Shown one piece after another: positions 3 to 52,170 of a stretch of 64,000 nucleotides of DNA (position 1 is the first letter of the stretch; each line of letters opens with the position of its first letter). Made by a program: the position numbers and the translations under genes. Origin of the DNA: Adlercreutzia murintestinalis (GTDB taxonomy: Bacteria > Actinomycetota > Coriobacteriia > Coriobacteriales > Eggerthellaceae); NCBI RefSeq assembly GCF_943192905.1, contig NZ_CALPCC010000002.1:1-64000 (forward strand), read 5' to 3'. The notes under the pieces were generated by a model, which was given only the letters and a program-made list of their open reading frames with translations, had not been told where the DNA came from and made no database searches.

Positions 3-3000
3 GAGATTCATCTTCGATTGGCGCCAGGCTATAAATATAAGCTTAAAGGCTGGAAAGTTGAAGGCTGGGAATACGGCTATAAAGCTCCTCAGGGATCTAT
101 GGGAGCAACACTTATCCAGACCGTGCCGAATGCGGATATGAGCACATCCACTTATCAAGCATACCATGGCTGGATAGGTCGTGGCGTTGCAGGCAATATT
201 ACCTATACGCCTGAATTCGAAGATGAACCTGGGGAGACCTATAACTTAAGCGCAACCGCAGGCGCAAACGCGAGCAACGCAAGTGTTGAACCACAGACAT
301 ATACGTTTAAACCGGCAGGCGGAAACGTATCCACAGTAACGCTGAACGCTGATGCGGCTTCAGGCTACGATAAAGCCAAAGGCAGCTGGGAAGTTTGGAT
401 CAAGGACGGCTCAACCGAAGGCGTAGATGCAAACGGGTTCAAGAAGCTGGATGTTCCGGAAGATGGCTCAGGAAAGGTAACCAAGCCCGTATACAACGAA
501 GCTGACGACAACTGGACGGCAGATATCAACCCCGGCACTTACGGAGAAATTGACTTCCGTCCGTCGTTTACCGAAGGCGCAACCTATAGCCTGACGGCCA
601 GCGAGGTGTCGCACGCGGCAAACGCAAGCGTTGAGGTAACCGCGCCCGCTCCCGCAGACGAGGCTGCAAAAACAAAATATACGTTCCAGCCGACGACGGG
701 CACTACGTCGCTGTCCCTGAAAGCCGATCCCATTAGCGGCTGGAATAAGGCTGCTGGCACATGGGAGCTTTGGATACATGACGGCGTCCAAAACGAAGAT
801 ACCGACGATAACGGTTACAACAAATACGAGTTCGGAGCAGCAGGCACAGGCAAGGTGACAGAGCCTGAGCCAGTGATGGAGGACGGCAATGTTGTCGGCT
901 GGACTGCAAGCATTAACCCCGGCACCTACGGCGATATAGATTTCCGTGTGCGTTTCGACACGCCGAAGGAATATGGCATAACAATTGAAGCTGCCGCAAA
1001 CGGCCATGTGAAGGAAGGCAGCCTGAACGTCGACCCTCAGAATTACAAGTTCAACATGGGCGACTATACCGCCGATGATGGCAATGTTGACGAAAGCGGC
1101 AATCTGATCATTACGCTGGAGGCACAGCCGATCGACGGATACGATATAAGCAATGCCACCTGGAGCGTTAAGCTCGACGGTACTCCTATAACCAGCGGTT
1201 TCGGTGAAAACGGGCTGCTTAGACCAGTGCCGGCCAAGGATGCCAGTAATAACGTCATTCCGGGTAAATGGACTGCAGCCATTGTTGGCGGAGGCAGGAT
1301 AAGCGGCGCGCTTGAATACACGGTATCGTTCGGCAGTGCTGCTTCGTATGATATTTCAACAGAGCGCGGAGATCATGCACAGAGCGTTGAACTTCAACCT
1401 GCTGACGACAACAAGTACGAATTCAACACCGAGAAGACCGTTTCGTTGAAAGCGACTCCGGCCATTGGATATACGGGCAACGCAGCATGGTCTGCCACGG
1501 TCAACGGCGTTGCTGCTACTAGCGATCAGATAACCTTCGGCACCGATACCAAGGGCACCTGCACGGCCACCATCTTGGCTGGTACGCTTGGCCCGGTGGT
1601 GTTCACGGCATCGTTTGCCGACCATGATGCCTACGCTGTGTCCGCATCGACTGGCCAGCATGCGCAAAGCGCAAGCGTGGCGCCAAGCTCGAGCGCGCCG
1701 ACCATCGTTGAGGGTGCCGATAACACCTACACCTATACGTACGATCCTGCTCAGGACACGCACGTGGTCATTGATGCCAAGCCCAACGATGGCTACACCA
1801 CGAAGGCCTCTTGGGTCATCAAGGTGAATGGCGGCAACGATGCTGGTGGTTATGAGATCACCTATACGGCCGACTCGGATGATCCGGGCGAAGGCGCCAC
1901 CGGCGACGGCGACGGTGGCGAAGGTGGCAACACTGGCTCCGGTTCCGGCGACGGCAGCGATACCGGCTCCGGCGACGGCAGCGCCGCCACTGTGGTGAAG
2001 GCGGCCATGCACGCGCCCACCGTTACCAAGCCCCAGCTGGTCACCGATACCGCGGGCAACGTAAGCTGGACGGCCCAGATCCAGGCTGGCTTTGCCGGTT
2101 CGGTGGAATTCGTGCCCAGCTTCAACGAAGTCTCTGAATTCCAGATCACCGCTACGGGCGTGCAGAACTACAAGGTGAACCAGATTGACGGGGAAGAGGT
2201 CAGCAGCGTTCAGGTAGTCAGGCCGGTGGATGCTGAGGGCAATCACAAGTACGCCTATTACCCAACGCCAACAGGTGATGGCACCGACACCACCGAGGTG
2301 GAGCTTGCGGCCGACCCAGTGGATGGCTATGCGAAGGATGCTGCTACGTGGGAGCTTTGGATCGACGATGGCACCGGCAGCGCCGAGAACGATGGCTACA
2401 CCAAATACCAGTTCGGCACCAGCACAGACACCGTGCCTGGCGATGGCAAGGTGACCAAGCCGGTCTACAACAGCGATACGGGCACCTGGACGTGCACCAT
2501 CCTGCAAGGCACGCTGGGCGCGATCGACTTCCGCGTGTCCTTCACGGAGGGCAGGTCGTACAACGTCGCCATAGATGTGACCGCTGAAGGCGACAATGTG
2601 CGCGAAGACCTCGATGTTGCCAAGTGGGGCCCAAGCGTGAGCCCGGCGACCTATACGTTCGTGCCCACCAGTAGCGAAGAGACGAAGGCGGGAACGGTCA
2701 CCATAATGGCTCAGCCCGAACGTGGCTACTCTGTGCAGGATGTGGTCTGGGAAGTAACGGTGGGCGAAGGCGAGGGTGCCACCACCTTCACCATCGATGC
2801 CGAGCACGAAAACGACGGCACCGTGATAAGCACGCCCGTGTACAACGCGAATACCAAGAGCTGGACAACGGACATCCAGAAGGGCGTCTTGGGCGATATC
2901 ACGTTCAAGCCCAGCTTCCCCAAGGAGGCAACGTACAGCATCACGACAGATAGTGATATGGGCATCCATTTAGAATACGACTTCTTAGATGCCTATGATC

Positions 3001-5669
3001 AAAGCGCGGTTGATAAGAGCACGATCAAGAACCAATTATTTGAAAAGGGTGCAGATAATTGGCAGGTGACCGAGCCTCAAAGTGAGACGTATACGTATAA
3101 CAAGCAAACAGAGATCGTGATCACCTATTCTGCCGATATTTTCGAAGGCTTCGATCCTAATAGGTTCCGGTTCAACGCCAGCTATGTATACGATAAAATA
3201 AGTAACCCTTATTCCAAGGATTATGATCCGACCCATCCAGATTATGACCCAACTCGCGATGAAAGCTCTGACGAATACATCGAATTAGATCTTGGTGGGT
3301 TGTCTAAGAAATGGGATAGCGAGAACAACTGTTGGAGGCTCACGCTCCCTGGAAATATACGGGGAGATTTGGAAATCTCCATTGATCACTTGAAAGTGTA
3401 TCGGCATCAGGTTAATTTCAAGAACTATGACGGCCTTGATGGTGACGGAAATATCAAGCCGTACGCCCAGTACTATCCAACGAACGAGAAGACGAAGTAT
3501 CCCTATTGGGCTACATATACCGGTACATATGTGCTCCAAGATGAGGTATGGTCAACTCTTAAGTGGGTGTTTGGACAAGGTGATATACGTCCGGCAACAT
3601 TCGTAGAGCTCGTGGATTCCACCATCATGCCAGACGCGAACCCGACCCGCCCGGATGACGCCTATTACACCTATACGTTCAAGGGTTGGACCGAGGAAGA
3701 GAACCCGGAAATCGACGCGGACGTCATTCCCATGGAGGAACTTGAGGCCAGCATCGTGAAGGGCGACAAGACCTACTACGCGGTGTACACGCGCGCTCCG
3801 CGTCAGTACGAAGTGACGGCCGAGGCCAACGGCAGCACAGTGGACGAACATCACGTGCTGGATTCCAAGGTGGAGATCCTTGAACCTGAGGCCACCACCA
3901 CCGAAGAGGGTCCGAAGCACTACTACAGCGCCTATCCGGAAAGTTCCACGGAGCGCACGAAGGTGGTGATCACCGCTGAGCCTACCGAGGGCTGGAAGGC
4001 CAACCCGACGTGGGAGGTAACGGTCAATGGCGTGAAGGTGGAGGACGCGTATCCTGAGCCACCGAACTCGCCAGGGGCGGCACCCGGCCCAGATGATGGC
4101 ACTTCAAAGGGCACGACGGTCAAGGCGGCCATGTATGTGCAGCCTACCAAGGTGACCATGCCGGTATGGGATGCGAGCGCCAACGATGGCAAGGGCGCCT
4201 ATGTGGCGGAGATACTTCCGGGCGTGTTCGGCAACGTTGAGTTCAAGGTCAGCTTCAACGACCCCGATGCGTTCCCGATCACCTTTGTGAACGAGCACGT
4301 CAAGGACAGCGAAGGCAATGCCACCACGCTGTATGCAGAGGACATCAATGCGGGCACGCCGTACCCCGAGTTCATGGAGTCCGACGACTTCAAGAACCGG
4401 GTGGGCACGCCTCAGAAACCGTGGGATAACGACCATGCCTATTACTTCAAAGGCTGGACCGAACAGGCCAATGCGGAGGTAGACGCGGACGTCATCCCGA
4501 TGACAGCGGATCCGAACAACCCCTCGGCCGTAACGCCGATGGATCAGCGCACGGTCGACTCGGCGAAGACCTACTACGCAGTGTTCCGTTCGGTGGCACT
4601 GCACGACATGACCATCGAGCTGTACCAGTATGCCGATGCGTCGGACGCGGCTCAGCAATACGACTATGCAGGACCGGATGCCAGCAGCACGGGTTCCTAC
4701 ACGGTGCGCCTGCCCGAGACAACCAGCTCTGACGACCTGAGTCAGGTGTCGGTGAAGCTACCGGCCACCACGGCCACCATACCGACCCAGATGAAGGATG
4801 GAAGCGTTGCGGAGGGCATTGCGGGCCACATGATGACCAGCTGGTATCTGCCGGAAAGCGACCCGAGCGCCAGCGATGCCAACGCTAAGGTCGACCTGGA
4901 AGCGGCATCAGGCGAAGGCGCTAGCGCACCAACGACGTTCAGCTTCGCCGGGGCTACGGGTGAGGGCAGCGATGGCTACCTGACCGTGACCGCCGATAAG
5001 CTGCTGCCAGCTGACAGGCTGCCCGTTACGGGCGACGTTACGGTGAAGCTGGTCGCAGGCTGGCGTGCCACCATCCAAGGCACCGCAGCCACCGATGCTG
5101 CCCGCTTCAATCTGAAGACGGATGCGAGCGGCAGCATGGAGGCGGCTCAGTTCGTGCAGCTTCAGTCCAGCACGGCTCGCGCACTGGCGGTCAGCGCAAC
5201 GTCTGCGCCAGACGCAGAGGCGTTCGCGAAGCTGTTCCGCACGCAGGATGGCGGCGCTGCGCCCACCGAAGACGATATGGCAGCTACTGCGTTCCGCTTC
5301 CCCTACTTCGAGCGGGATTACTGGTCCACCAACGACGAGACCGAAGCCTACGACAAGGCTCACGAGTTCTCCTACACCGGCGGCGCGATCTCAGCACAGC
5401 TGTGCATGATAGAGGGCACCAACAGCATCGATCAGAGCACCACCGTGGGCAAGCTGGGCCTGTGCCTGGCGGACACCCTGCGCACCTTGACGCAAGACGA
5501 GGTTGACGGAGAGACCTTCAACCTTACCGAGAGCGAAGAGGAAGGCGGTGGCAAGGGCGAACAGCTGGGCAAGATCGTATGGCAGTTGCAGATGCTCAAC
5601 GAAGCCGACGCGCACCAATACGCTTTCGGCAGCGCCACGCAGACCTGGTGGGGCGAATGGTTCGAATAG
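3..5669 (+). CDS. Giant repeat-containing surface protein (5' end outside window)
   Basis: The frame is open from the left edge, so the true start and any signal peptide lie outside the window; about 1,889 codons are visible. The visible part is a chain of beta-rich repeats of roughly 100-190 residues. Each has an aromatic Y-x-F entry, a GY/GW turn, a W-E-x-W-I strand and an I-x-x-G-T-x-G-x-I/V-x-F closing strand. Near the C-terminus are two Listeria-Bacteroides-like (InlB B type) units, marked by F-K-G-W-T-E and T-Y-Y-A-V. It ends in W-W-G-E-W-F-E with no LPxTG motif, hydrophobic anchor or basic tail, so attachment must be by another means. Base composition is mosaic: around 3000-3240 G+C is about 38%, against 65-68% nearer the end. 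Likely an adhesin or matrix protein; the ligand is unknown. Confidence 0.85.
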   Translation, partial: EIHLRLAPGYKYKLKGWKVEGWEYGYKAPQGSMGATLIQTVPNADMSTSTYQAYHGWIGRGVAGNITYTPEFEDEPGETYNLSATAGANASNASVEPQTYTFKPAGGNVSTVTLNADAASGYDKAKGSWEVWIKDGSTEGVDANGFKKLDVPEDGSGKVTKPVYNEADDNWTADINPGTYGEIDFRPSFTEGATYSLTASEVSHAANASVEVTAPAPADEAAKTKYTFQPTTGTTSLSLKADPISGWNKAAGTWELWIHDGVQNEDTDDNGYNKYEFGAAGTGKVTEPEPVMEDGNVVGWTASINPGTYGDIDFRVRFDTPKEYGITIEAAANGHVKEGSLNVDPQNYKFNMGDYTADDGNVDESGNLIITLEAQPIDGYDISNATWSVKLDGTPITSGFGENGLLRPVPAKDASNNVIPGKWTAAIVGGGRISGALEYTVSFGSAASYDISTERGDHAQSVELQPADDNKYEFNTEKTVSLKATPAIGYTGNAAWSATVNGVAATSDQITFGTDTKGTCTATILAGTLGPVVFTASFADHDAYAVSASTGQHAQSASVAPSSSAPTIVEGADNTYTYTYDPAQDTHVVIDAKPNDGYTTKASWVIKVNGGNDAGGYEITYTADSDDPGEGATGDGDGGEGGNTGSGSGDGSDTGSGDGSAATVVKAAMHAPTVTKPQLVTDTAGNVSWTAQIQAGFAGSVEFVPSFNEVSEFQITATGVQNYKVNQIDGEEVSSVQVVRPVDAEGNHKYAYYPTPTGDGTDTTEVELAADPVDGYAKDAATWELWIDDGTGSAENDGYTKYQFGTSTDTVPGDGKVTKPVYNSDTGTWTCTILQGTLGAIDFRVSFTEGRSYNVAIDVTAEGDNVREDLDVAKWGPSVSPATYTFVPTSSEETKAGTVTIMAQPERGYSVQDVVWEVTVGEGEGATTFTIDAEHENDGTVISTPVYNANTKSWTTDIQKGVLGDITFKPSFPKEATYSITTDSDMGIHLEYDFLDAYDQSAVDKSTIKNQLFEKGADNWQVTEPQSETYTYNKQTEIVITYSADIFEGFDPNRFRFNASYVYDKISNPYSKDYDPTHPDYDPTRDESSDEYIELDLGGLSKKWDSENNCWRLTLPGNIRGDLEISIDHLKVYRHQVNFKNYDGLDGDGNIKPYAQYYPTNEKTKYPYWATYTGTYVLQDEVWSTLKWVFGQGDIRPATFVELVDSTIMPDANPTRPDDAYYTYTFKGWTEEENPEIDADVIPMEELEASIVKGDKTYYAVYTRAPRQYEVTAEANGSTVDEHHVLDSKVEILEPEATTTEEGPKHYYSAYPESSTERTKVVITAEPTEGWKANPTWEVTVNGVKVEDAYPEPPNSPGAAPGPDDGTSKGTTVKAAMYVQPTKVTMPVWDASANDGKGAYVAEILPGVFGNVEFKVSFNDPDAFPITFVNEHVKDSEGNATTLYAEDINAGTPYPEFMESDDFKNRVGTPQKPWDNDHAYYFKGWTEQANAEVDADVIPMTADPNNPSAVTPMDQRTVDSAKTYYAVFRSVALHDMTIELYQYADASDAAQQYDYAGPDASSTGSYTVRLPETTSSDDLSQVSVKLPATTATIPTQMKDGSVAEGIAGHMMTSWYLPESDPSASDANAKVDLEAASGEGASAPTTFSFAGATGEGSDGYLTVTADKLLPADRLPVTGDVTVKLVAGWRATIQGTAATDAARFNLKTDASGSMEAAQFVQLQSSTARALAVSATSAPDAEAFAKLFRTQDGGAAPTEDDMAATAFRFPYFERDYWSTNDETEAYDKAHEFSYTGGAISAQLCMIEGTNSIDQSTTVGKLGLCLADTLRTLTQDEVDGETFNLTESEEEGGGKGEQLGKIVWQLQMLNEADAHQYAFGSATQTWWGEWFE

Positions 5670-5763: not shown

Positions 5764-6405
5764 ATGACGAACAACAACGACATGAACCAGGCTCCGAACC
5801 AACCTATGCGACCGCGCGTGCAGGTGCAGCCGCAAGCGCCGGTGCAGCCGCGCACGGGCACGCCGAACGTTGCTTTGGGGCAACCCGAAGGCCAGGACCC
5901 CAAGAAGAACGGCCGTAAGCGCACCATCTTGGTGGTGCTGCTGGTGCTCATCGTGGCGCTGATCATCTGGCTTCTGATATGGCTGTTCGCCTGCAACGGC
6001 AACAATCCCTTCGATACGAACGCGCAAAGCGGCCAGGCGCCCTACAAGACCGAGGAAGAGATGCGCGCCGAATTGGATCGCAAGGTGGAAGAGGGCATGT
6101 TCAACATCTCCATCGCCAGCGTGATCGAATTCGAGGATGGCACCTCGAACGGTACCGCCTACATCGAGAACGTACCGGGCAACCGCTACAACATGCAGGT
6201 GACCATCACCGAGGATGAAACGGGCGATGTGCTCTACGAGAGCGGTGTTCTGCAGCCGAACCAATACATAGAGAACATCACGTTGACCCGCGATCTTGAT
6301 CCGGGCAGCTATGAGGCCACCGCTATGTTCACGGCGCTCGACCCCGACACGTTCCAAGAGACGGGCCAGGCTGCCGCAAAGGTGAACTTGGAGGTGCTGG
6401 GCTAG
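5764..6405 (+). CDS. Single-pass membrane protein with extracellular beta domain (module copy 1)
   Basis: 213 residues. A Pro/Gln-rich cytoplasmic head (1-45) is followed by a basic K-K-N-G-R-K-R stop, one transmembrane helix (about 54-76) and a roughly 130-residue outer domain. The outer domain starts with K-T-E-E-E-M-R-A-E-L and contains G-M-F-N-I-S-I, E-D-G-T-S and I-E-N-V-P-G-N-R-Y. That domain is clearly paralogous to the product at 7622-8326, which has the same order of motifs and the same terminal A-A-A-K-V. The start is supported by AGAGGA about 6 bases upstream. It lies 94 bases after the giant surface protein and before a secreted protein, so it may be a membrane adaptor or anchor for these proteins. 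No known family was recognised; the function is inferred from context only. Confidence 0.85.
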   Translation: MTNNNDMNQAPNQPMRPRVQVQPQAPVQPRTGTPNVALGQPEGQDPKKNGRKRTILVVLLVLIVALIIWLLIWLFACNGNNPFDTNAQSGQAPYKTEEEMRAELDRKVEEGMFNISIASVIEFEDGTSNGTAYIENVPGNRYNMQVTITEDETGDVLYESGVLQPNQYIENITLTRDLDPGSYEATAMFTALDPDTFQETGQAAAKVNLEVLG

Positions 6406-6429
6406 GCGAGCGCACAAGCGCATGCGCGC

Positions 6430-6499
6430 CAACGGCGAGCAACGGCGTTTCCTATTGCTGAATCCCCATTCAACTGGGAAACGCCCTTGCTCTCCGTTG
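6430..6499. terminator. Long nested hairpin, possible terminator or RNA element
   Basis: Arms 6430-6452 and 6477-6499 pair over 23 positions with two mismatches. The loop contains a second 5-bp stem (6459-6463/6468-6472) closing on CCCC. No clear T-run follows, so a simple intrinsic terminator is uncertain. It lies 25 bases after the stop of the upstream membrane-protein gene. Confidence 0.5.
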
Positions 6500-6627
6500 G
6501 AGAGCGCAGGGCTGGTCAAAGGCAGTGCGTGCCCATGGGGCCAGCCCGCAGATAGACGGGGGATGCGCCCTCACCCAGGGGCGCATCGCTCGGGGCCGCA
6601 CCAAGACCCGAGCGGCCGTACTGAACA

Positions 6628-6643
6628 GGATGCGATCGCATCC
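6628..6643. repeat. Perfect 16-base palindrome GGATGCGATCGCATCC
   Basis: The sequence equals its own reverse complement over all 16 bases. With no loop it fits a dimeric-protein operator better than an RNA hairpin. It lies 130 bases upstream of the secreted protein gene at 6774. Confidence 0.5.
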
Positions 6644-6773
6644 AGGAAGCGCCAAGGCGCATCCGCTCGAAGGCAGGCATGAAGCGAAGCCGAGCCTTCA
6701 CAGAGAGGTATCAAAGGGTAGGGAACCTTTTGATATAGAGAAATGGTCACATCGATACAAGGAGGAAATGACC

Positions 6774-7436
6774 ATGAAGAAGATGACGAAGATCTTCGGC
6801 ACCGTAGCAGTATCCGCAGCTCTGGCCATTGGCACCGCTATGCCGGCATTCGCTGACCCCGGCCTGGCTGGCGATGCGACCGGCGACAAGCAGGACCATG
6901 CCGTTCAAGGCTCTACGGACCCGAACGCTGACAAGCCTACCATGAGCACGGACGTTCTGGCCTATTACGACAAGTCCGCCAGCGAGTCAGAGAACCAGGT
7001 GTCGGCTGCAGTGCCGCTGGGCGTCTATGTGGTGATCAACCCCTCGGGCAACACTGAGCAGACCATCATCACGCCGAGCAACTACTACATCAAGAACACC
7101 GGCAAGAACACCGTCGAGGTCACCAATGTCAATGCGAAGATGAACACGAATGGTAAAGTCACGTGGAGTGCTGTGGCAACGGGTACGACCCTGACCACGA
7201 CGAAGACCATGAAGATGCTGTTCACCACCGGTGCGAAGCAGATCGACCTGGCAACTGCGACTACGAGCGGCTACACCAACTTTGGTCTGACCATCGCCGA
7301 GGGCTCTTCTGCTGGCTTTGATATCGTTGGCAAGTCCTTTGTTAGCACTTCTGATGCTGGCAGCATCCAGGATCAGACCGAGTTGGCTGACAAACTGTTC
7401 GATATGACCTACACCATCGCGAAGGCGACGGCATAA
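6774..7436 (+). CDS. Secreted beta-rich surface protein (module copy 1)
   Basis: 220 residues. The start at 6774 is chosen because GGAGG (6761-6765) lies 8 bases before it; an ATG at 6768 is too close. A classical signal peptide (M-K-K-M-T-K, hydrophobic core, cleavage after A-F-A) precedes a short linker and the motif P-T-M-S-T-D-V-L-A-Y-Y. The same motif in the form T-T-M-S-T-S-V-Y-A-Y-Y follows the signal peptide of the protein at 8412. The rest is Thr/Asn/Val-rich, predicted beta, with no anchor and no cysteine. Size and composition recall small Gram-positive fibre or camelysin/TasA-type subunits, but no diagnostic motif was found, so this is only a suggestion. It lies behind a strongly structured leader. 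Confidence 0.85.
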   Translation: MKKMTKIFGTVAVSAALAIGTAMPAFADPGLAGDATGDKQDHAVQGSTDPNADKPTMSTDVLAYYDKSASESENQVSAAVPLGVYVVINPSGNTEQTIITPSNYYIKNTGKNTVEVTNVNAKMNTNGKVTWSAVATGTTLTTTKTMKMLFTTGAKQIDLATATTSGYTNFGLTIAEGSSAGFDIVGKSFVSTSDAGSIQDQTELADKLFDMTYTIAKATA

Positions 7437-7451
7437 AAAGAGCTTCATCTG

Positions 7452-7590
7452 TTCGACGCTCTGTCGAATGGCGCCATAAAGGCGAAGTAGCAGGCACCGG
7501 AGCGGCAGCTTCTTGGCGGTTGCGCCGCTCCAGATGCCCTGAAGAGCGGGAGCTGGCCCCTGTGGCCATGGGCCTTGGCGGCTGGCTCCC
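7452..7590. terminator. Three successive GC-rich hairpins between surface genes
   Basis: Three stems follow one another: 7452-7457/7463-7468; 7499-7506/7524-7531 (8 bp); and 7548-7553/7585-7590 with a nested 7555-7559/7570-7574. They fill the gap between the secreted protein and the second membrane protein. The first stem lies 15 bases past the stop codon and could terminate or attenuate. No T-run is seen. Confidence 0.45.
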
Positions 7591-7621
7591 ATCGCAACGA
7601 GTGTAAGGATGCACCCCCGAA

Positions 7622-8326
7622 ATGGCAAATGAATATCGCAAGGATGCTGGCAACCCTCGCCCCGTGTCGCCGTCAGGCGCCTACGGTGCGCCGCACTACC
7701 CGGTAGGGCAGCAGGCGAACATGGCCGCGCCGCAGATGGCGCAAAGAGGTCAGGCGCCGCAGCCCGTCCCGCAGCCGGGCTTTGCAGCGCCGGGGTCTGC
7801 ACAGCAGCCCCCGGAGGAGAAGAAGCGTCGTCGCGGCGCCGGTTTCTGGATCGGCATCGTGGTGGCCTTGGTTGCCATCATCCTGGCGATAGTGTTGGCG
7901 TTCATCTTGCTCGGCGGGAACGACGAGCAAGGAAGGCGCGCCGGTACGCTCGGCCAGCTGGAAGGCAAGACGGAAGAAGAGATCGTCGCCGAGCTGAACC
8001 GCGCTGTGGACGAGGGCATGTTCAACATATCCATATCGTCCAACGTCACCTTCGAAGATGGCACCTCGGAAGGCGACCTGCGCATAGAGAACGTGCCAGG
8101 CAACCGGTATCTGATGCAAGTTGACATCAAGCGGGACGACACAGGTGAGACCATCTACGAGAGCGGCATCCTTGAACCGAACTATCACATCCAATCGGAC
8201 AAGCTCTCCACGGATCTGGATGCGGGCACCTACGAGTGCACCGCCGAGTTCCATGCCCTTGATCCCGACTCGGAAGAGGAAGTGGGCACGGCGGCGGCCA
8301 AGCTGGTCATCAATGTGGCCAACTGA
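7622..8326 (+). CDS. Single-pass membrane protein with extracellular beta domain (module copy 2)
   Basis: 234 residues. The cytoplasmic head (1-65) is rich in Pro, Gln and Ala. A basic stop K-K-R-R-R is followed by a transmembrane helix at about 74-98. The outer domain begins with K-T-E-E-E-I-V-A-E-L and matches the 5764-6405 product strand by strand: G-M-F-N-I-S-I, F-E-D-G-T-S, I-E-N-V-P-G-N-R-Y, Y-E-S-G-I-L, and a closing A-A-A-K-L-V. The cytoplasmic heads are not alike, so the outer domain is the conserved part. AAGGA at 7605-7609 is a rather distant ribosome binding site. It precedes the LAPTG-anchored protein, repeating the membrane-then-secreted order of copy 1. Family not recognised. 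Confidence 0.85.
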   Translation: MANEYRKDAGNPRPVSPSGAYGAPHYPVGQQANMAAPQMAQRGQAPQPVPQPGFAAPGSAQQPPEEKKRRRGAGFWIGIVVALVAIILAIVLAFILLGGNDEQGRRAGTLGQLEGKTEEEIVAELNRAVDEGMFNISISSNVTFEDGTSEGDLRIENVPGNRYLMQVDIKRDDTGETIYESGILEPNYHIQSDKLSTDLDAGTYECTAEFHALDPDSEEEVGTAAAKLVINVAN

Positions 8327-8411
8327 TCGGGCCAGGTTGGGGCCAGGCACGTAAAGGGAATGGGCGATTTCATGCTGGGGAGCACTGAGAGGCAGCTGAT
8401 GAGGTAGCGCT

Positions 8412-11400
8412 ATGAACGGTTTTCTCAAAAGGATCATATCGTGTGCAATGTGCGCGTTGCTCATTATGGGCATGGCTGCACCCGCCTATGCCGTTCCTGG
8501 TGCTGCGGGTGTGACAGGGCCTGACGAGCAGGATGTGAGCTATTCGACCGGGGACATCATCGGCGACAAGGCCGAGTGGGGCATGGACCAGAGCGTCATC
8601 CAGAACCCGGGCAGCCAGACCCCGGGGGACAAGACCACCATGTCCACCAGCGTGTATGCCTACTACGGGGACACCAGCCCCTTCTCGCTCCAGCGCACGT
8701 TGGATAGCATTTCGGGCACGTTGGACGAGCTTTCGTGGGCCTCGCTGAGCGCTCATGTGGTGGGCGCAGCCGAGAGGATCACCTATACCTGGCATGCGGA
8801 GAGCCGCCCCGCAGGCAGCGAAGAACCCTTCGAGCCGGTGCATCTGGTGGGTGGGTCCGCCGATGAGCCTTTCGGCATCAGCGGCACCTTGAACGCTGCT
8901 GAGAACAAGGAGATCGTGCTTCCCTTGGGCAGTCAGATCGTGGCTGGCAGCAATGAGGGCTTGCAGGATCAGCGGGAGTACCGTTTCACGGTGACCGCGG
9001 TGAAGCCCAGCACTGGCGAGCAAGCCGAGACCACCATGACCGTGGTGGTGGGCAATAACTACCTTACCGTGCTGTATGCGCCGCAGGGCAGCGACCCGTA
9101 CGATTTTGATGCGCGCATCACCGGCGTGTTCTTGAAAGGGTCCGAACTCGTCTGCGCGAGCCCCATCGAGGATGAGGCCGTGCTGGATGCGTTCGCGGGG
9201 GTGGCGGGCGGCTTCGCGCTGAGCCACACCTGGCAACTGAGCGTGTCGGGCATCGCAGGCTGCGTGAAGTCCATCGATTCCGTAGCATTCTCCATCACCG
9301 CAGATGAGGCGGCCCTGATCGAGCAGGGCGCGGCCAAGGCAGTGGCGTTCGAGGATGGGCGCACCACCGTCTATGCGGGCAACGGGTTGCAAGCCGTCAG
9401 CGAGACCGACGATGACGGGGTGGAGCATTTCTATGTGATCATTCCGAAGGATGGCGGCAAAGGGCTTGGCAGCTATGCGCTCATGTTCCAGAATGGCGAT
9501 ACGGTGCAGGTGTCGGCACGCGTTGAGGGCACGGGCGGTCAGGTGAGCCCTGTTGGCACGAAGACCTGGTCGATGGCTGATGCGTGGGGCAACCCGGCAG
9601 ACATCCGCTATGTCATGGTGCCGAGCGCAGGCTACAAGGTTGCCAGCGTTGTGGTGACCGACGCTCTGGACCGTGAGGTGTTCTCCTATCCGGCGCAGGC
9701 GCTGACCTCGCCCAGCGCACTCTCGCTGACCGGGTTGTTGCAGGCGGGCGGCAGCTACCAGATGGTGGTCGCCTTCCAGCGAACGGAGAGCGACCCGGAT
9801 GCCGCTCCGGTGACCTTCGAGGCCATGGCCTGCGATGAAGCGGGCGCGCCCTTGACGAGCGATGTGAGCATCTCTGCGACCGGAACGCTGCGCGATGCGT
9901 CGTCTGTCAGTGCTGCGCCGGGGGCATCGGTGCGCCTGGAAGGCTTGATGCGGGGGTCGGGCGTCAGCGTGGTGTTCGCCAGCACCAGCCATGAGGCCCT
10001 GCGCACGGAAGTGTCTACCGATGGCGGTGCTACCTGGCAGGCGGGGCCTCCCATGATCGGGAGCACCTGCCTTGTTGACGAGATGACCGCAAACACGCGG
10101 TTGCGATTCGTGTGCCATGCCAGCGCGCAGGGTGCGGATCTTCCCGCCTATGCTGTGGTGGCGCGCATCGTGGATGGCGATGGGGTCACCTTGGCCCAGA
10201 CCGGCACCGGCACCAGCAATGCGGCAAGCACCGATACTGGCGACAAGGTGGTGGTGGCCTCCACCAGCGTCAAGCGCGGCAGCATGGCCGAGGTGAGCTT
10301 GAAGGGCGGTCCGTATCGCACGGTGGTGCGGGCGTATCTGATCTCGGCGGATGGCACCGTGCAGACCGATCTTGCATCCGATCTTTCCGGCAACGAGGAA
10401 GACGGCTGGAAGATACACACGCGTGCGTTGGAGGACATGGTCATCTGCGTGCAGTTCGCGGGCTATACCGACTATTTTGTGACCGCGCAGCGTCCCAGTA
10501 ATGGTGATTTCCAGCTCAACGGCAGCCCATGGGAGACTACCGATAGCCCTATCAGGGTCGTAGAGGGCACCTCGCCGTCTATGCTTCGCATCTCCGCTAA
10601 GCCTAGCTATGTGATAAACAGGGTCCTATGTGAAGGCATCTCTTTCGGCGGTGAGGGCAACCCGAAATCGGTGAGCGTGGAGCTGCCCTATCAAAAAGCA
10701 GAGGATCACCCCATCAAGATCGTGTTCACCCCAGCTGACGACGATGATGAGTACATCGACATCACGGTTTCGGTGAACACATCCATCAGCAAGCGCAGCG
10801 CGGCGGCCATGCAGTCGGGCACGGTACCGCTATCCACCGAGCAGAGCGGTCCGCGTGAGGCATCGATGCTGGGTGCGGTGCCGCAAACGCTGAGCGATAC
10901 GACGCCTGCTGGTGTGGTGGGCGCTGCGGCAGGAAGCAGCCGCGCGGCAGCCGATCAGGCGGCAGACCAGGCAGACGAGGCTGCCAGCGAGGCGACGGGT
11001 GCAGCAGTGGCCAGTCCCTTAGAGGACGAGCCCGAGGGCGCTTTGGGCGGTCTGGTGATGCCGCCGAACGTGCGCATCAAGAAGGGCACGCCCTATACGT
11101 TCAGCATCTATCCGAACGACGGGTATACGCTGGACGAGGTGCGCATCGTGACCACCAGCGGAGAATTGGTCAAGGTGTACACGAAAGACGATCTGCCGCT
11201 GATCAGCGACCAGACGCTCGGCGGGGGCGACGGAGATGCCGTGTATGGTTACAGCTTGCCCTTGCCAGGCGATATCCTGACCCAGAGCGTCAGCATCAAT
11301 GTCAGCTTCACCGAGGACGCGAATGCCATCTGGGGGGCGCTGGACACCACCACCATCGGGTGCTCGGATGGCGGCTTCATATCGCCTTCCGGAGAGATGC

Positions 11401-12947
11401 GCATCCCGCGGGGCAACACGGTCAGCGTTGACCTGACGGCTAAGCCCGATGCGGGTTATCGCCTGGCGCATCTGTGGCTGATCAGCACCCAGGGCAAGGA
11501 GGATATCGCCGAGGGGCGCCCGAAGGGCGGCGACTTCAACGTAGAGCTGAAGGGCGGCATGCAGGTGTATGCGGAATTCGAGCGCGACACCGCCTCCATC
11601 TGGGTGGATGACAACGTGGCGCACGGAACGCTCAGCCCATCGGGTAACGTTGATGTGGTGCTGGATGATGGCGCACGCGTCTACTTCTGGGCCGACGAGG
11701 GCTACCGCCTGACCGAGATCATAACAAGGTATCCCAACGACCCGACCGAGTACCGCCAGAAGGTGGCGTCGAACACGTATTCGTGGGATTTCTACGACAT
11801 TGAGGACGGCATGCAGATCAGCGCCGTGTTCGGTCCGGGCGCGACGCCGCAGGTCGATCGTCATACCATTACCGCTACGGCCGAGAACGGCACCATATCG
11901 CCTGCGACCATGCAGGTTGCGGCGGGCCAAGATGCTGTGTTGACGTGCCGCCCGCAGCCAGGGTACATCTTCGATTCCATTGAGGTGACCTACGCTAACG
12001 GCACAGCGGTGAATCCTTCGCGGGTTTCGGTTGAGGGCGGCAAGATCACGGTGCGCGCGATAGACGGCACCATGCAGGTGCATGTGACCTTCAAGGAGAT
12101 GCTCTTCCATACCGTGCGCCTGGACCTTGAGATAGAAGGCGGCCAGCTGTCTGCGACGAACAGCGTGGAAGGCGCCCTGCTGGTGCGTGACGGCCAGAGC
12201 GTGAAGGTGAACGTGGTGGCTGCGGATGGCTATGTGCTGGACGGCCAGCCTGAGTACATAGAGGACAGCGAGCCGGGTCTGTTCTCCTTCTTCGCGGCGC
12301 GAGAGCCGTCGAAGCTGGATTACGCCAATGGGGTAGCTACGCTGGAGCCGCACGCGAGCGGCCTTCTGACGGCGAAGTTCCGCTCTACGAAGGAGCCGGA
12401 AGGCCCTGATAGCAGCTCGTCGAGCAGCAGTAGTTCGTCGTCGGGTAGCTCATCTGCGGGGTCCTCTTCCAGCAGCTCTGCCGGAAGCTCGGGCGGCACC
12501 GAGCAGCCAGGGGGCGATCCCTCAGAGGAATACGACTTCGTCATCACAGCCACGGCGGGCGAGCATGGCAGCATCGAGCCGTCCGGGCGTGTGGGGGTCA
12601 ACGAAGGTCAGAGCGCCGTGTTCACGTTCAAACCAGATGCAGGCTATCAGGTATCCAGCGTTACGGTGGATGGCACGCGTTATGAAGGTAGGCGCGACCA
12701 GTGGACATTCTCCGAGGTAAGCGATGATCATCGGGTCCATGTGGAGTTCGTCGAGCGAACGGCACAGCCGCTCACCCCGCTGACCACTCTGCGAAACATG
12801 ATGTCGGCGGCTGGGTTGGCGCCGACCGGAGATGCCATGGTAATCGTCTTTGGCGTGCTCTCGATGATGGCGCTGACCGGTGGCGTATTGGCTCTCTATT
12901 CTGGGCGTAAACGCAAGGAAGGGTATCGAGATGACAACTGTAGGTGA
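8412..12947 (+). CDS. Giant LAxTG-type cell-wall-anchored repeat protein (module copy 2)
   Basis: 1,511 residues. A signal peptide ends at P-A-Y-A, and the motif T-T-M-S-T-S-V-Y-A-Y-Y shared with the 6774 protein follows shortly after. The long middle holds immunoglobulin-like segments. From about residue 880 there are several divergent InlB-B-type repeats (pattern A-x-x-G-x-I/L-S-P-S/A-G followed by P-x-x-G-Y). A Ser/Gly linker at about 1333-1361 precedes a last repeat. The C-terminus has L-A-P-T-G-D (1469-1474), a hydrophobic helix and R-K-R-K, the layout of a sortase substrate; LAxTG is the form known for class E sortases of Actinobacteria. No matching class E sortase is visible in the window. 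A stalk-like adhesin is the most likely role. Confidence 0.9.
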   Translation: MNGFLKRIISCAMCALLIMGMAAPAYAVPGAAGVTGPDEQDVSYSTGDIIGDKAEWGMDQSVIQNPGSQTPGDKTTMSTSVYAYYGDTSPFSLQRTLDSISGTLDELSWASLSAHVVGAAERITYTWHAESRPAGSEEPFEPVHLVGGSADEPFGISGTLNAAENKEIVLPLGSQIVAGSNEGLQDQREYRFTVTAVKPSTGEQAETTMTVVVGNNYLTVLYAPQGSDPYDFDARITGVFLKGSELVCASPIEDEAVLDAFAGVAGGFALSHTWQLSVSGIAGCVKSIDSVAFSITADEAALIEQGAAKAVAFEDGRTTVYAGNGLQAVSETDDDGVEHFYVIIPKDGGKGLGSYALMFQNGDTVQVSARVEGTGGQVSPVGTKTWSMADAWGNPADIRYVMVPSAGYKVASVVVTDALDREVFSYPAQALTSPSALSLTGLLQAGGSYQMVVAFQRTESDPDAAPVTFEAMACDEAGAPLTSDVSISATGTLRDASSVSAAPGASVRLEGLMRGSGVSVVFASTSHEALRTEVSTDGGATWQAGPPMIGSTCLVDEMTANTRLRFVCHASAQGADLPAYAVVARIVDGDGVTLAQTGTGTSNAASTDTGDKVVVASTSVKRGSMAEVSLKGGPYRTVVRAYLISADGTVQTDLASDLSGNEEDGWKIHTRALEDMVICVQFAGYTDYFVTAQRPSNGDFQLNGSPWETTDSPIRVVEGTSPSMLRISAKPSYVINRVLCEGISFGGEGNPKSVSVELPYQKAEDHPIKIVFTPADDDDEYIDITVSVNTSISKRSAAAMQSGTVPLSTEQSGPREASMLGAVPQTLSDTTPAGVVGAAAGSSRAAADQAADQADEAASEATGAAVASPLEDEPEGALGGLVMPPNVRIKKGTPYTFSIYPNDGYTLDEVRIVTTSGELVKVYTKDDLPLISDQTLGGGDGDAVYGYSLPLPGDILTQSVSINVSFTEDANAIWGALDTTTIGCSDGGFISPSGEMRIPRGNTVSVDLTAKPDAGYRLAHLWLISTQGKEDIAEGRPKGGDFNVELKGGMQVYAEFERDTASIWVDDNVAHGTLSPSGNVDVVLDDGARVYFWADEGYRLTEIITRYPNDPTEYRQKVASNTYSWDFYDIEDGMQISAVFGPGATPQVDRHTITATAENGTISPATMQVAAGQDAVLTCRPQPGYIFDSIEVTYANGTAVNPSRVSVEGGKITVRAIDGTMQVHVTFKEMLFHTVRLDLEIEGGQLSATNSVEGALLVRDGQSVKVNVVAADGYVLDGQPEYIEDSEPGLFSFFAAREPSKLDYANGVATLEPHASGLLTAKFRSTKEPEGPDSSSSSSSSSSSGSSSAGSSSSSSAGSSGGTEQPGGDPSEEYDFVITATAGEHGSIEPSGRVGVNEGQSAVFTFKPDAGYQVSSVTVDGTRYEGRRDQWTFSEVSDDHRVHVEFVERTAQPLTPLTTLRNMMSAAGLAPTGDAMVIVFGVLSMMALTGGVLALYSGRKRKEGYRDDNCR

Positions 12948-13323
12948 GAACTATCTCACTCAGATCGAGTTCAAGAAGCGCCGGGTCGGCGGCGTGGACG
13001 TAGAGAACGTGGTGAGCCATTTTGAAACGCTCACGCAACTGTACGAGCAGGAACTAGCGCAAAACGCGGCTGCGTATTCGCAACAGCTGTATCAGCGGGA
13101 TATGCAGATCAGGCAGATGCAGCAGCAGTATGCCGATGCGCTGCAACAAGCCGCTGCTGCGCAGGACGAGGCAGTGCGCATCGCAAGCGAACAGCGTGCG
13201 GAAGCCGATGCGCACGAACGCAGCCTTACCGCCTGTGAAGAGTACCTGCCAGCTATCTGGGACTGCGTGTCGCGCATGGAGCGAGCATTCTCCGCGCGCA
13301 TACCGGATATGCCGCCGCGGTGA
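12931..13323 (+). CDS. DivIVA-like coiled-coil protein
   Basis: 130 residues. ATG 12931 lies inside the 3' end of the surface-protein gene (17-base overlap) and is preceded by AAGGAAGGG, which indicates translational coupling. The N-terminus (Y-L-T-Q-I-E-F-K-K-R-R-V-G-G-V-D) resembles the lipid-binding start of DivIVA/GpsB-type proteins. Residues about 30-105 form a long Gln/Ala-rich coiled coil. No membrane segment or signal peptide is present, so it should act in the cytoplasm. The link to surface-protein positioning or septal display is inference from gene order. The DivIVA similarity is weak and short. Confidence 0.75.
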   Translation: MTTVGENYLTQIEFKKRRVGGVDVENVVSHFETLTQLYEQELAQNAAAYSQQLYQRDMQIRQMQQQYADALQQAAAAQDEAVRIASEQRAEADAHERSLTACEEYLPAIWDCVSRMERAFSARIPDMPPR

Positions 13324-13351: not shown

Positions 13352-13720
13352 ATGCCTGAATTGGTAGTGGGAAAAGTCGTGGTTTCCGAGCGCCCCGAGC
13401 CGGGAGCGGGTACGGGATGGCATCTGTGGTGGCCATCGCTCTTGCGCATCGTCTTGAACATGGGGCGCCCGATCAGGTATCGGGAGTTCTACTTCGACCT
13501 GGATACGGTCCCGCATGAGCTCTTGGCCGAAGCTCTCGAGTGGTTCACGGACGAGGGTGTCTATATCTATTCGAGTCGGCAGACGAACAAGGGCGTGTGC
13601 CGTTTCGGCGTGAAGGGGTTCTACACCATATTGGCTCGGAATGCCTTCGAGGTTCCTCTCTTCGAGCGAAAGAGCGCCGTCGAGCTCATGCGCATATGGC
13701 CGCAGAACGGCGAGTCGTAA
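13352..13720 (+). CDS. Hypothetical protein, 122 residues
   Basis: No known family was recognised. The protein is soluble and mixed alpha/beta by composition. A segment W-W-P-S-L-L-R-I-V-L could be a short amphipathic helix, and the C-terminal half is rich in F, Y and R. GGGTGA upstream of ATG 13352 may serve as ribosome binding site. It sits 28 bases after the coiled-coil gene, and its stop codon overlaps the start of the next gene (TAATG), so the three belong to one transcription unit with the surface proteins. Confidence 0.7.
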   Translation: MPELVVGKVVVSERPEPGAGTGWHLWWPSLLRIVLNMGRPIRYREFYFDLDTVPHELLAEALEWFTDEGVYIYSSRQTNKGVCRFGVKGFYTILARNAFEVPLFERKSAVELMRIWPQNGES

Positions 13721-14743: not shown

Positions 14744-17700
14744 ATGCCAGCCCAGTTTGAAGTACGCGCCGCCGCGTCCGATGCGGTTGCGCGCATTCAG
14801 CAGCAGTTGAATCTGCCACATTTCATTGCCGCAACGTTGGTTGCGCGCGGTCTTGATACGCCCGAGAAAGCGCAGGACTTCATGCGTCCTTCCCTTGAGC
14901 GTGATTGGTTGAATCCCTACGACATGCCCGGCATGACCGCAGTGGCCAATGCGGTGGAGGCGGCCATCGACGCACACCAGCACATCGTGGTGTTCGGCGA
15001 TTTCGACCTGGACGGCATCTCTGCCACCACCGTGCTCACGCGCGGCATTCGGGCGCTGGGCGGACGCGCCACCCCGTTCATTCCGAAGCGCTTCGAAGAG
15101 GGCTATGGTCTTACGATGGCGGCTTATGAGCGCATGAAGCCGTTGCAGCCTGAACTGATTGTCACGGTTGACTGTGGCATCGCGTGTGCCGAAGAGGTGG
15201 CGACCATCGTGACCGATGGAGTGCCCGTGGTGATAACCGACCACCACGAGGCGGGCAATCTCATGCCGTGCGACGTGCCCATCTGCGACCCGAAGACGGT
15301 GGACGATTGCCCTAGTGCCATTCTTGCTGGTGCGGGCGTGGCACTGAAATTGGTGCAGGTATTGGGCAGCCGCCGCGGGTTCCCGCACCTGTGGCGCAGC
15401 TACACGGATTTCGCGGCGCTGGGCACCGTAGCTGACCTCATGCCGATGCGCGACGAGAACCGCGCCTTGGTGGCCGATGGTCTGGCTCGTATGAACGAGG
15501 AAGCGAGGCCATGCATCGTGGCGCTGGCCGAGGCAAGCGGTGCTGCAGGGAAGGCCATCACGTCGACTTCACTCAGCTTCACGCTGGTGCCGCGCCTGAA
15601 CGCGGCCGGCCGCATGGGCGATGCCCAGTTGGCCTTGGACCTATTGATGTGCGACAGCTACCCGGAAGCCTATGAGTTGGCGCGCCAGCTGGAAGGCGTT
15701 AACGACAAGCGGCGCGCTATCGAGGCGGAGCTTTCCGAGGTTGCTAAGGAACAAGCTGCGCAGATCTACGACGGGCAGCGCGCCTTGGTGGTGGCGGGCG
15801 AGGGGTGGCACGAGGGCGTGAAGGGCATTGTGGCCAGCCGCTTGGTCAGCATGTATGGCGTACCTACGCTGCTGTTCACCATCTGCGGCGACGAGGCGCG
15901 CGGCAGTGGCCGGTCGGTGGGCAACGTGAACCTGTTCGCCGCCATCGAGAGCGCGTCCGACCTGCTCACGCGCTTCGGTGGGCATGAGGCTGCGGTGGGG
16001 GTGACCCTTCCCGCGAAGAACCTGCCTGCGTTCGCGCAGCGCTTGGCCGCCTACATGGACCAGCTGCCCGAAAGCGAGTTCCAACCCATCATGGAAGTGG
16101 ATGCGCTGGTGGGCTTGAACGAGCTGACGCTTCCTGCGGTGCAGATGGTCGACTTGCTAGCGCCGTTCGGGCAGGAAAACCGCGTGCCGCTGTACCTGGC
16201 GCGCAACGTGACGCTTGCGAACTGCCGAGCGGTGGGCGCCGACAAGAACCATTTCAGCTGCACGTTGACCGATGGGCGTGCCAGCGTGAACGGCATCTTG
16301 TTCCACTGTCAGAACATCCAAGACCTGCTGCACAACGACTCGGTGGTGGATGCTGCCTTCAACGTGCAGATCGACGAGTGGCGCGGTCGGCGCAACGTGA
16401 AGGCCATGCTGGAGACGCTGGCGCCCGCGTGCAGATGCGAAGGGCTGCATGCGTGCATCGATCCTGAGGTCGACCGTCTGTTCGAGCAGCTGTTTGGGCG
16501 GGCGGAGGATGCGGCGGGCTGCGCGCTGACCACGCAGGCGCGCCGTCATGCGGCCCCCAGCTCAGCGGAGCCATCGGAGCGCGGTCGCGCCTTCTGGGAG
16601 GAGCTGGGCGCGCGCGATCCGAAGGCGCTCGAGGCTGAGGTAATTTCGGCCATTATTGGCAATGGCCAGTTGCATCCGGCACAGCGGCAGATCCTTGATC
16701 GGCTGCAAGCGGGCCGCTCCACGCTGGGGGTCATGGCCACCGGACGCGGCAAGTCGCTGGTGTTCCAGGTGTATGCGGCCATGCAGGCGCTCGTGCATCA
16801 TAAGGCCAGCCTGTTCGTGTATCCGCTGCGCGCGCTCATGGCCGACCAGGCTTTCCACATGGCGCGCCAACTGGGCCGTTTCGGGTTGCGCTGCGCGGTG
16901 CTGAACGGCGAGAGCAGCCAGACCGAGCGCGAAGCGGTGTATGCGGGCGTTGCCGAGGGCAGCGTGGACATGGTGCTGACCACGCCGGAATACCTCGCCT
17001 TCCACGCCGACCGCTTGGCTCACACCGGACGCATCGGCTTCATGGTGGTGGACGAGGCGCACCATATTGGCCTGGCGAAAGCGGGCCAGCGGTGCGCTTA
17101 CCGCCAGCTGGGCAGTGTGGTCAGTCAGCTGGGCGGCCCGGTGGTGCTGGCGGTTACTGCAACTGCTCCAGGTGAGGTGACCGACGATGTGGAGGCTACC
17201 TTGCCCATTGAGGATCGCGTGGTGGACGATGCTTCGCGCGACAACCTTCATGTGAACGACCAGCGCAACATCAGGAACCGCGACGACTACCTGGCGCATT
17301 TGGTGGCATCGGGTGGCAAGGCGGTCATCTATGTGAACTCGCGCGAGCAGAGTGTGGGCGTGGCGCGGCGCTTGCGCCGTCGCGTGCCGCAACTGGCGCC
17401 CATGATCGGCTTCTACAATGCCGGGCTGACACGTATCGAGCGCAACCGTATTGAGGATTTATTCCGCAGGGGAGACATTCAGGTATTGGTGTCCACCTCA
17501 GCCTTCGGGGAGGGCATCGACATTCCCGATATTCGCAACGTGGTGCTCTACCATATGCCGTTCAACGAGGTGGAGTTCAACCAGATGGCGGGCCGCGCCG
17601 GGCGCGACGGGCGCGAGGCATGGATACACCTGCTCTACGGGCGCGACGATGTGTCCATCAACGAGGGCATTCTGGCCGATCTGACGCCTGACCGCGACGT

Positions 17701-18094
17701 GATGGCACAGGTCTACCGTTGCTTGTGCAGCCTGCAGAAGGAATGTCCGCACGATGCCTTCCAGCTGACGTTCGACGATCTGGCGCGCCAGGCATCTGAC
17801 CGTTTCCGTATCGTTTCACCCACGGCTGCCGCCTGCGGCGTGTCCGTTTTTCGCGAACTAGGCCTGATAGAGACGCAGGAAACGTATAATAATGGCGTGA
17901 CCACGCACAGTATCCGCGTGAACGCTGGCGCGCCGAAGTGCGAGTTGACCGATTCGGTGCGCTATTGCGAGGGCCTAGACGAGCTGGGCATCTTCCGTGC
18001 TTTCCGCGATTGGGCCATGCGTGCCGACTTAGGCCGCTTGACCGTGCGCATCACGCATCCCATCACGCCCGACACGAAGCGCGAAGGACGTTAG
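14744..18094 (+). CDS. recJ: RecJ single-strand exonuclease fused to RecQ-like helicase
   Basis: 1,116 residues, about twice a normal RecJ. The N-terminal half has the DHH phosphoesterase motifs: D-F-D-L-D-G (86-91), V-D-C-G-I, T-D-H-H (165-168) and a late G-G-H-E-A-A-V-G DHHA1 motif. From about residue 640 a superfamily 2 helicase follows: Walker A A-T-G-R-G-K-S (about 665), D-E-A-H (about 769), T-A-T-A, and a C-terminal lobe with S-A-F-G-E-G-I-D-I-P and Q-M-A-G-R-A-G-R-D-G. RecJ degrades single-stranded DNA 5' to 3' in recombination and mismatch repair and normally relies on a separate RecQ for unwinding; here both activities appear to be in one chain. The gap to rel is 3 bases. Confidence 0.93.
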   Translation: MPAQFEVRAAASDAVARIQQQLNLPHFIAATLVARGLDTPEKAQDFMRPSLERDWLNPYDMPGMTAVANAVEAAIDAHQHIVVFGDFDLDGISATTVLTRGIRALGGRATPFIPKRFEEGYGLTMAAYERMKPLQPELIVTVDCGIACAEEVATIVTDGVPVVITDHHEAGNLMPCDVPICDPKTVDDCPSAILAGAGVALKLVQVLGSRRGFPHLWRSYTDFAALGTVADLMPMRDENRALVADGLARMNEEARPCIVALAEASGAAGKAITSTSLSFTLVPRLNAAGRMGDAQLALDLLMCDSYPEAYELARQLEGVNDKRRAIEAELSEVAKEQAAQIYDGQRALVVAGEGWHEGVKGIVASRLVSMYGVPTLLFTICGDEARGSGRSVGNVNLFAAIESASDLLTRFGGHEAAVGVTLPAKNLPAFAQRLAAYMDQLPESEFQPIMEVDALVGLNELTLPAVQMVDLLAPFGQENRVPLYLARNVTLANCRAVGADKNHFSCTLTDGRASVNGILFHCQNIQDLLHNDSVVDAAFNVQIDEWRGRRNVKAMLETLAPACRCEGLHACIDPEVDRLFEQLFGRAEDAAGCALTTQARRHAAPSSAEPSERGRAFWEELGARDPKALEAEVISAIIGNGQLHPAQRQILDRLQAGRSTLGVMATGRGKSLVFQVYAAMQALVHHKASLFVYPLRALMADQAFHMARQLGRFGLRCAVLNGESSQTEREAVYAGVAEGSVDMVLTTPEYLAFHADRLAHTGRIGFMVVDEAHHIGLAKAGQRCAYRQLGSVVSQLGGPVVLAVTATAPGEVTDDVEATLPIEDRVVDDASRDNLHVNDQRNIRNRDDYLAHLVASGGKAVIYVNSREQSVGVARRLRRRVPQLAPMIGFYNAGLTRIERNRIEDLFRRGDIQVLVSTSAFGEGIDIPDIRNVVLYHMPFNEVEFNQMAGRAGRDGREAWIHLLYGRDDVSINEGILADLTPDRDVMAQVYRCLCSLQKECPHDAFQLTFDDLARQASDRFRIVSPTAAACGVSVFRELGLIETQETYNNGVTTHSIRVNAGAPKCELTDSVRYCEGLDELGIFRAFRDWAMRADLGRLTVRITHPITPDTKREGR

Positions 18095-51433: not shown

Positions 51434-52170
51434 ACGAGCGTCCTTTCGTTGGAATACCGGGTATAGCTGCACGTGACAAAGGTGACGCACGATTCGGCGG
51501 GTGCGCTGTCAAGCTGCACGCAGCACTCGTTCATCCGATCGGCATACCATGCAGCGAAGTCGTCCTGATCGGCGAAGGTCGTGCGCTTTGTCTGGTCGTA
51601 TCCGTTGATAATGGCTGCGCCTGACACGGTGAGCATGCGCTTCTCAAAGGGTGTTTGCAGCAAGATGACGGCGTGCGTGCGCGCGAACTCTTGGCTCGCA
51701 AAAGCGGCGAAGTCGGCGAACATGGGTGCGCCGTATTTAATGTGATGCCCGAACACCACGGCATTGCCGCTCAGAAGGCCGGTGGACGCGCAGGTTGCGT
51801 CAAGATAGGGGCATCCGAGATGGTTCGCATTTCTGCGGATATCGTGGCTCAGATAATACGTGGGGTCATCAGCGGGCGCTTGCACGATCGCGCTATTGAT
51901 GCGAGTGCCGGGCACGCTGACCCAACCTACGACATCGGGGTTCACTGCGGTCCAGTAGTGCCAGTCAACGATCGGAAAACCATCGGTGTCGCAGGTCGTG
52001 AGGCCATGGGGGTTCGCATCAGTGCTCGCACTGTGGCTGCACCAGGCAAACCACAGTGCGATCGCGGCTGACACCGCGACCAATGCCGCTGCGAGCAGGA
52101 AGGCTGCTACCGCCCGCACGGGGATCGCGCTGCTCGCGGCCTGTCCGGATCGTCGGTGCTGCTCATGCAT
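51421..52170 (-). CDS. srtB: Class B sortase
   Basis: 249 residues. An N-terminal signal-anchor helix (about 20-42) is followed by a class B sortase domain: W-x-x-V-N-P-D-V-V-G-W-V-x-V-P-G-T-x-I, Y-Y-L-S-H-D, catalytic His142 in V-F-G-H-H, Cys234 in F-V-T-C-S-Y, and Arg243 in N-E-R-T-L-V. The long helix before the Cys (D-D-F-A-A-W-Y-A-D-R) is a class B trait. It should join or anchor the LPGTG protein encoded two genes upstream. Its start overlaps the previous gene by 8 bases. Confidence 0.93.
   Translation of the reverse strand: MHEQHRRSGQAASSAIPVRAVAAFLLAAALVAVSAAIALWFAWCSHSASTDANPHGLTTCDTDGFPIVDWHYWTAVNPDVVGWVSVPGTRINSAIVQAPADDPTYYLSHDIRRNANHLGCPYLDATCASTGLLSGNAVVFGHHIKYGAPMFADFAAFASQEFARTHAVILLQTPFEKRMLTVSGAAIINGYDQTKRTTFADQDDFAAWYADRMNECCVQLDSAPAESCVTFVTCSYTRYSNERTLVYAT

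Follow-up and report, generated by a model that had tools for sequence, protein, structure and literature searches.

Near the beginning of the window (the whole analysed stretch of DNA, 64,000 nucleotides of Adlercreutzia murintestinalis), genes for two membrane proteins alternate with genes for two secreted proteins of very different size, and the secreted proteins carry the same short motif in the N-terminal region. The question raised by this locus is what the motif does and what the genes assemble. An earlier note, made from the sequence alone, had described two tandem pairs of a membrane and a secreted protein; all four open reading frames were found, and the sizes given for the secreted partners, 220 and 1,511 residues, were borne out.

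The five-gene cassette and its distribution

The window contains a single copy of a cassette of five genes, H–MemA–S–MemB–L (Table 1). MemA has a Pro/Gln-rich cytosolic tail and an extracellular Ig-like domain; the outer domain that the two membrane proteins had been said to share was recovered in the whole-genome match as an alignment of about 120 residues with 49% identity, and the comparison of MemA with MemB gave 60% identity across the 124-residue domain. The S protein comprises an N-terminal strand followed by a domain, and its gene is preceded by a ribosome-binding-like GGAGG; a Pfam search found two Flg_new_2 repeat matches in L. The scan for promoters and terminators gave no signal convincingly above shuffles.

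Table 1. Coordinates of the cassette genes and their features in the window
Feature	Position	Strand	Description
H	18..5669	+	Very large secreted repeat protein without C-terminal anchor, 1883+ aa (a lower bound, the contig starts inside H)
MemA	5764..6405	+	213 aa; type II membrane protein, one TM helix
MemA outer domain	6031..6402	+	About 124 aa, EEGMFNISIAS...IENVPGN...; alignment of 63 sequences
S	6774..7436	+	220 aa; small secreted protein, beta-sandwich-like, Sec/SPase I signal
S strand motif TMSTDVLAYY	6939..6968	+	Proposed donor strand
S domain (QVSAAVPL... to MTYTIAKATA)	6996..7433	+	S-family alignment; proposed groove-bearing beta-sandwich
MemB	7622..8326	+	234 aa; second membrane protein, B-type outer domain
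MemB outer domain	7952..8323	+	From the Mem outer-domain alignment
L	8412..12947	+	1511 aa; large protein, wall-anchored by predicted sorting signal
L strand motif TMSTSVYAYY	8637..8666	+	Proposed donor strand, matched to S
L C-terminal sorting signal LAPTGD, TM segment, basic tail	12816..12947	+	From sequence

The module of two pairs is real, but the unit had been drawn too small; the genome has about nine paralogous loci, and each complete locus also has an H gene upstream. The source genome (2.04 Mb in 55 contigs) encodes 20 Mem paralogs at these loci, most of which have the order H, MemA, S, MemB, L. The cassettes lie on contigs C2 (the window), C25, C31, C1, C12, C24 and C4, with partial copies at the contig ends of C38 and C35 and a divergent cluster containing four Mem genes at C1:120-129 kb, and occupy about 100 kb, some 5% of the 2.04 Mb assembly.

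Two small genes follow L in the window (12934-13323 and 13352-13720, both +), encoding a coiled-coil protein starting IEFKKRRVGGVD and a 122-aa protein; counterparts of both were seen only beside the divergent C1 cluster (L014:8669-9001 and 7651-7872, -), and the two may be accessory genes. Farther along, a single ORF of 1116 aa (14744-18094, +) encodes a fusion of a RecJ exonuclease and a RecQ-like helicase.

When 84,980 species genomes were scanned, 35 loci were recovered, 12 of them in Adlercreutzia sp. ZJ304 and further ones in Gordonibacter, Enteroscipio and Eggerthellaceae MAGs; Oscillospiraceae, Anaerotruncus massiliensis, Christensenella and other Clostridia add a second phylum. The domains named in the earlier note occur together and in the same order in other genomes, the gene order being kept in both Actinomycetota and Bacillota, and across the collected family the motif gives a good alignment. 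Among sampled genomes, Mem is present in 27 of 138 from the window's family and in 5 of 296 from its phylum. At three loci (L034:6400-7119, L035:9887-10606 and L036:5833-7083) Mem occurs without S or L, and these stand-alone genes adjoin housekeeping genes. Two ZJ304 loci (L021:5291-7288, L028:6503-8137) have extra secreted proteins of 544-665 aa near H, which start with an S-like domain and are possibly additional subunits.

Neither the Pfam and NCBIfam searches nor the PDB sequence searches with S, Mem and their alignments returned anything significant, in agreement with the earlier statement that no known family is recognisable. The cassette is real and widespread and, as far as our searches reach, undescribed.

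The strand shared by S and L

The motif noticed in both secreted proteins, PTMSTDVLAYY in S and TTMSTSVYAYY in L, is indeed common to them: the best ungapped 11-mer between the two proteins scores 39, a value reached by none of 5,000 shuffles (mean 22.3, maximum 36). It is N-terminal, as had been claimed, but does not directly follow the signal peptide, lying about 28 (S) and 48 (L) residues past the predicted cleavage site, as a conserved core inside a variable leader. The S alignment comprises this leader, the pattern [A/S]-x-T-x-Φ-x-Φ-x-Φ (Φ, hydrophobic), a gap of 1-9 residues, the sequence [Q/N]-I-S-V-T-V-P-L and a domain ending in ..TYTIA; TMSTxVxAYY is an instance of the predicted short β-strand pattern T-x-Φ-x-Φ-x-Φ. 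The L proteins are otherwise unrelated to S, yet have the same short amphipathic strand near the N-terminus, and a Gibbs sampler run on L alone recovered it in nearly all of them.

The strands match within cassettes. In a position-free 11-mer search, S and L of the same cassette scored 30.5 and mismatched pairs 23.4, with none of 50,000 permutations within genome groups reaching the observed value. When the strands were located independently (two misplaced by the sampler, in L013 and L024, being left so), the BLOSUM score of S was 20.2 against its own L, 6.9 against other L and 8.4 against other S; again none of 50,000 within-group permutations reached the own-L score, and the p values for the three genome groups were 8e-5, 5e-4 and <2e-5. 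The S and L motifs were first found three residues out of register and gave no signal until aligned; the register was set from mismatched, between-cassette pairs only, to avoid favouring the hypothesis. A partial Mantel test of the S and L strands, controlling for the S domain, MemA and MemB and with the L013 and L024 strands set by eye, gave r 0.34 (p 0.0002); by group, p was 0.066 for the 17 Eggerthellaceae cassettes alone, which is not significant, and 0.009 for the others. Before the S–L tests, three loci were set aside: L028, where no L was found, L046, whose gene order is non-standard, and L041, which is cut and close to L014. The match is poor in some pairs (L031, L027 and L030). Taken together, these comparisons constitute a strong sequence signature for pairing between the S and L strands.

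The earlier note took the pattern to suggest cognate recognition, with the membrane domain possibly holding, chaperoning or presenting its partner through the motif. The Mem genes do flank S and L in order, and modelling of the Mem outer domain predicted an Ig-like sandwich (pLDDT 83.9) resembling PapD-like and pilus-chaperone domains, which bind subunits by strand pairing; a Foldseek search of the PDB placed GbpA first (E 8e-4), followed by weaker PapD-like domains, with the pilus chaperones DraB, FaeE and SafB (E ~0.005-0.02) among many Ig-like folds. Ig-like folds are common. The motif, however, diverges between cassettes where the Mem outer domain is strongly conserved (mean column identity 62% in the 63-sequence alignment), and between cassettes the similarity of L strands showed no relation to the similarity of Mem (rho 0.03 and -0.07); S matches L, and neither matches Mem. 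Recognition by Mem is accordingly improbable, and the earlier interpretation is partly supported as a whole: the specificity, as judged from covariation, is between S and L, and Mem possibly holds or chaperones its partners through sequence-tolerant strand pairing.

According to another reading, the motif is just the opening strand of a common Ig-like fold and has no binding role, its likeness in S and L being due to shared descent or gene conversion. The leader likeness does sometimes run past the strand, as in the cassette on C4 (PYGTKVGEM and PYGTHVGEM). Two L proteins of Anaerotruncus, of 158 and 162 aa, nevertheless retain the strand with no Ig domain behind it, consisting of little beyond a signal, the strand, a linker and an LPxTG-like sorting signal (IPDTGD and IPNTGD); their strands are ASTAFFLTIEK, paired with ADTSFNLTVDK in S, and ASTRFYLRIEN, paired with GKTDFYLNIDK. 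The similarity between S and L also exceeds that between S proteins across cassettes, and the unrelated csc clusters considered below show the same arrangement, all of which makes this reading very improbable.

L as anchor, H as presumed acceptor and a possible assembly

All Eggerthellaceae L proteins with the C-terminus in hand end in a -TGD sorting signal, nearly always LA[KQRTP]TGD, with a TM segment and basic residues after it; the signals in Anaerotruncus are LPNTGD, IPDTGD or IPNTGD, and no anchor was evident on L of three Clostridia loci. At least three sortase-like proteins are encoded in the genome outside the cassettes, and no sortase gene was seen within a cassette. Elsewhere in the window, a class B-like sortase gene (51421-52170, -) adjoins the gene of a 1383-aa surface adhesin (52702-56853, -) with a thioester domain, SpaA domains and four T-Q ester-bond domains.

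The H genes of the other cassettes correspond to the window's H in position and in the C-terminus of their products. The C-terminal domain of Bacillota H proteins is homologous to S (profile probability 97.9, E 4e-13), and the Eggerthellaceae H proteins compare with the Bacillota H profile at a probability of 86.9; the S-likeness of the window's H as a single sequence is not significant, the support in Eggerthellaceae coming from profile comparison only. A cassette-matched strand was not found in H (15.3 with its own cassette, 14.5 with others, p 0.09). From these features, S can be described as a strand plus a domain, L as a strand plus an anchor, and H as a domain only. The model of the S monomer was weak (pLDDT 64.6, with the motif unplaced), and its Foldseek neighbours were not significant (best E 0.04); they include strand-exchange pilins, namely the Pyrobaculum bundling pili, CsuA/B, CfaB, FimA and PapK. 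The fold neighbours of S and Mem are leads rather than proof.

The cassette probably encodes a surface fibre or complex joined by donor-strand complementation, in which S would provide both a groove and a strand, L a strand and the wall anchor, and H a groove only. By inserting its strand into the open S sandwich, L would tie S to the wall. S would in turn donate its own strand, either to the next S, so that a shaft forms, or to the S-like domain of H; H would then form a huge, adhesin-like tip distal to the wall. MemA and MemB would act as Ig-like chaperones or assembly factors tethered in the membrane, where they would retain the proteins with a groove until strands are exchanged. The fibre and the chaperone role of Mem are our inference; no report of a filament was found in the literature searched.

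The strand evidence applies equally to complementation without polymerisation, where a one-copy S adaptor would receive the strand of L and insert its own into H, giving a defined H-S-L complex. One S gene per cassette is the rule, as such a complex would have it, and no filament report was found; on the other hand, a small subunit with a strand and a groove polymerises in the TasA/TapA and pilus systems (PMC9674648), and the Christensenella locus L046 has an additional S-like gene. We regard the one-copy complex as rather unlikely.

If donor-strand complementation is right, it explains in concrete terms how a very large paralogous expansion of surface proteins in some gut Eggerthellaceae is assembled, and the matched, cassette-specific strands would be the keys by which a cell keeps some nine parallel systems apart. 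With a strand length of about 10 residues, binding and specificity lend themselves to direct tests with peptides.

Comparison with known surface systems

TasA subunits form fibres in which each completes the following one with its N-terminal strand (PMC9674648, PMC10151520), and the N-terminus of TapA resembles the TasA donor strand (PMC9674648). The cassette is similar in having a small secreted beta-sandwich-like protein with an N-terminal strand, S, and a second protein, L, whose N-terminus resembles that strand; it differs in that a sorting signal usually anchors L to the wall, and the membrane Ig proteins and large H are extra. Peptidase_M73 (PF12389) had no match in the source genome (the B. 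subtilis control was positive) or among S family members, and membership in the TasA/camelysin family was rejected on this ground. With chaperone-usher pili the cassette would share the logic of a donor strand, a groove-only tip and a chaperone, as well as the weak fold neighbours of S and Mem; unlike them, it belongs to a monoderm host where no usher is expected, Mem is fixed in the membrane, and the sequences are unrelated. Sortase-polymerised pili (SpaA/SpaH type) have in common with it the sorting signal on L, but S ends in ..TYTIA with no such signal, and nothing here implies a covalent polymer.

The csc clusters of Lactobacillus and Enterococcus comprise CscA (DUF916/DUF3324, with a TM segment), the small WxL protein CscB, the large CscC with a C-terminal WxL domain and the short LPxTG protein CscD (PMC1534035, PMC10599100); AlphaFold modelling has put a strand of CscA in a gap of WxL (PMC10599100), and CscD has been suggested to serve as anchor for the other proteins "through as yet unknown interactions" (PMC1534035). 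The same four roles recur in the cassette: a membrane Ig-like protein, a small secreted beta protein, a large protein with a C-terminal domain like the small one (clear in Bacillota H, weaker in Eggerthellaceae) and a wall-anchored partner, L, of LPxTG type except at the three Clostridia loci. Both systems also form many paralogous clusters per genome. In contrast to csc, the cassette has two Mem genes rather than one CscA, its L usually measures 700-2,700 aa, and its strand is cassette-specific, whereas that of csc is a conserved SNGxVxF. The WxL domain (PF13731) had no match in the source genome; S or H compared with a CscB profile at probabilities of 0.2-0.4, below 1%, Mem compared with a CscA-candidate profile at 13%, and MemA and MemB lack a Pfam match to DUF916/DUF3324. 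Membership in the WxL system was rejected, there being no WxL family in the genome and no detectable homology of S and Mem to WxL and CscA; the cassette is filed neither there nor with TasA, because homology is undetectable and the genome has neither family.

The match of roles led us to examine the csc clusters for a shared strand in the anchor and the small protein, and about 40 csc regions of Lactobacillales were fetched (L071, L072, L102-L141). With a profile built from CscB alone, 11 of 18 CscD N-termini beat their own shuffles at p<=0.02. Per-sequence values are fairer here than a combined p, which related clusters inflate; a few CscD entries were also mis-trimmed. The post-signal strand has the form YxSNGxVxF; in one cluster, CscD reads YQSNGEVEF and CscB YESNGSIEF. 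CscD carries the strand of CscB, and the shared-strand rule therefore seems to be general. No report of a strand common to CscD and CscB was found in the literature searched, with preprints and most subscription papers outside it. We put forward tentatively that the cassettes represent a new class of wall-anchored donor-strand fibres of gut Actinomycetota and Clostridia, of which one cell would run as many as about nine, insulated from one another, and in which the anchor carries the strand of the shaft, a rule that would also explain CscD. If right, it gives a testable answer to a question left open in 2006, namely how the short LPxTG protein CscD anchors WxL complexes.
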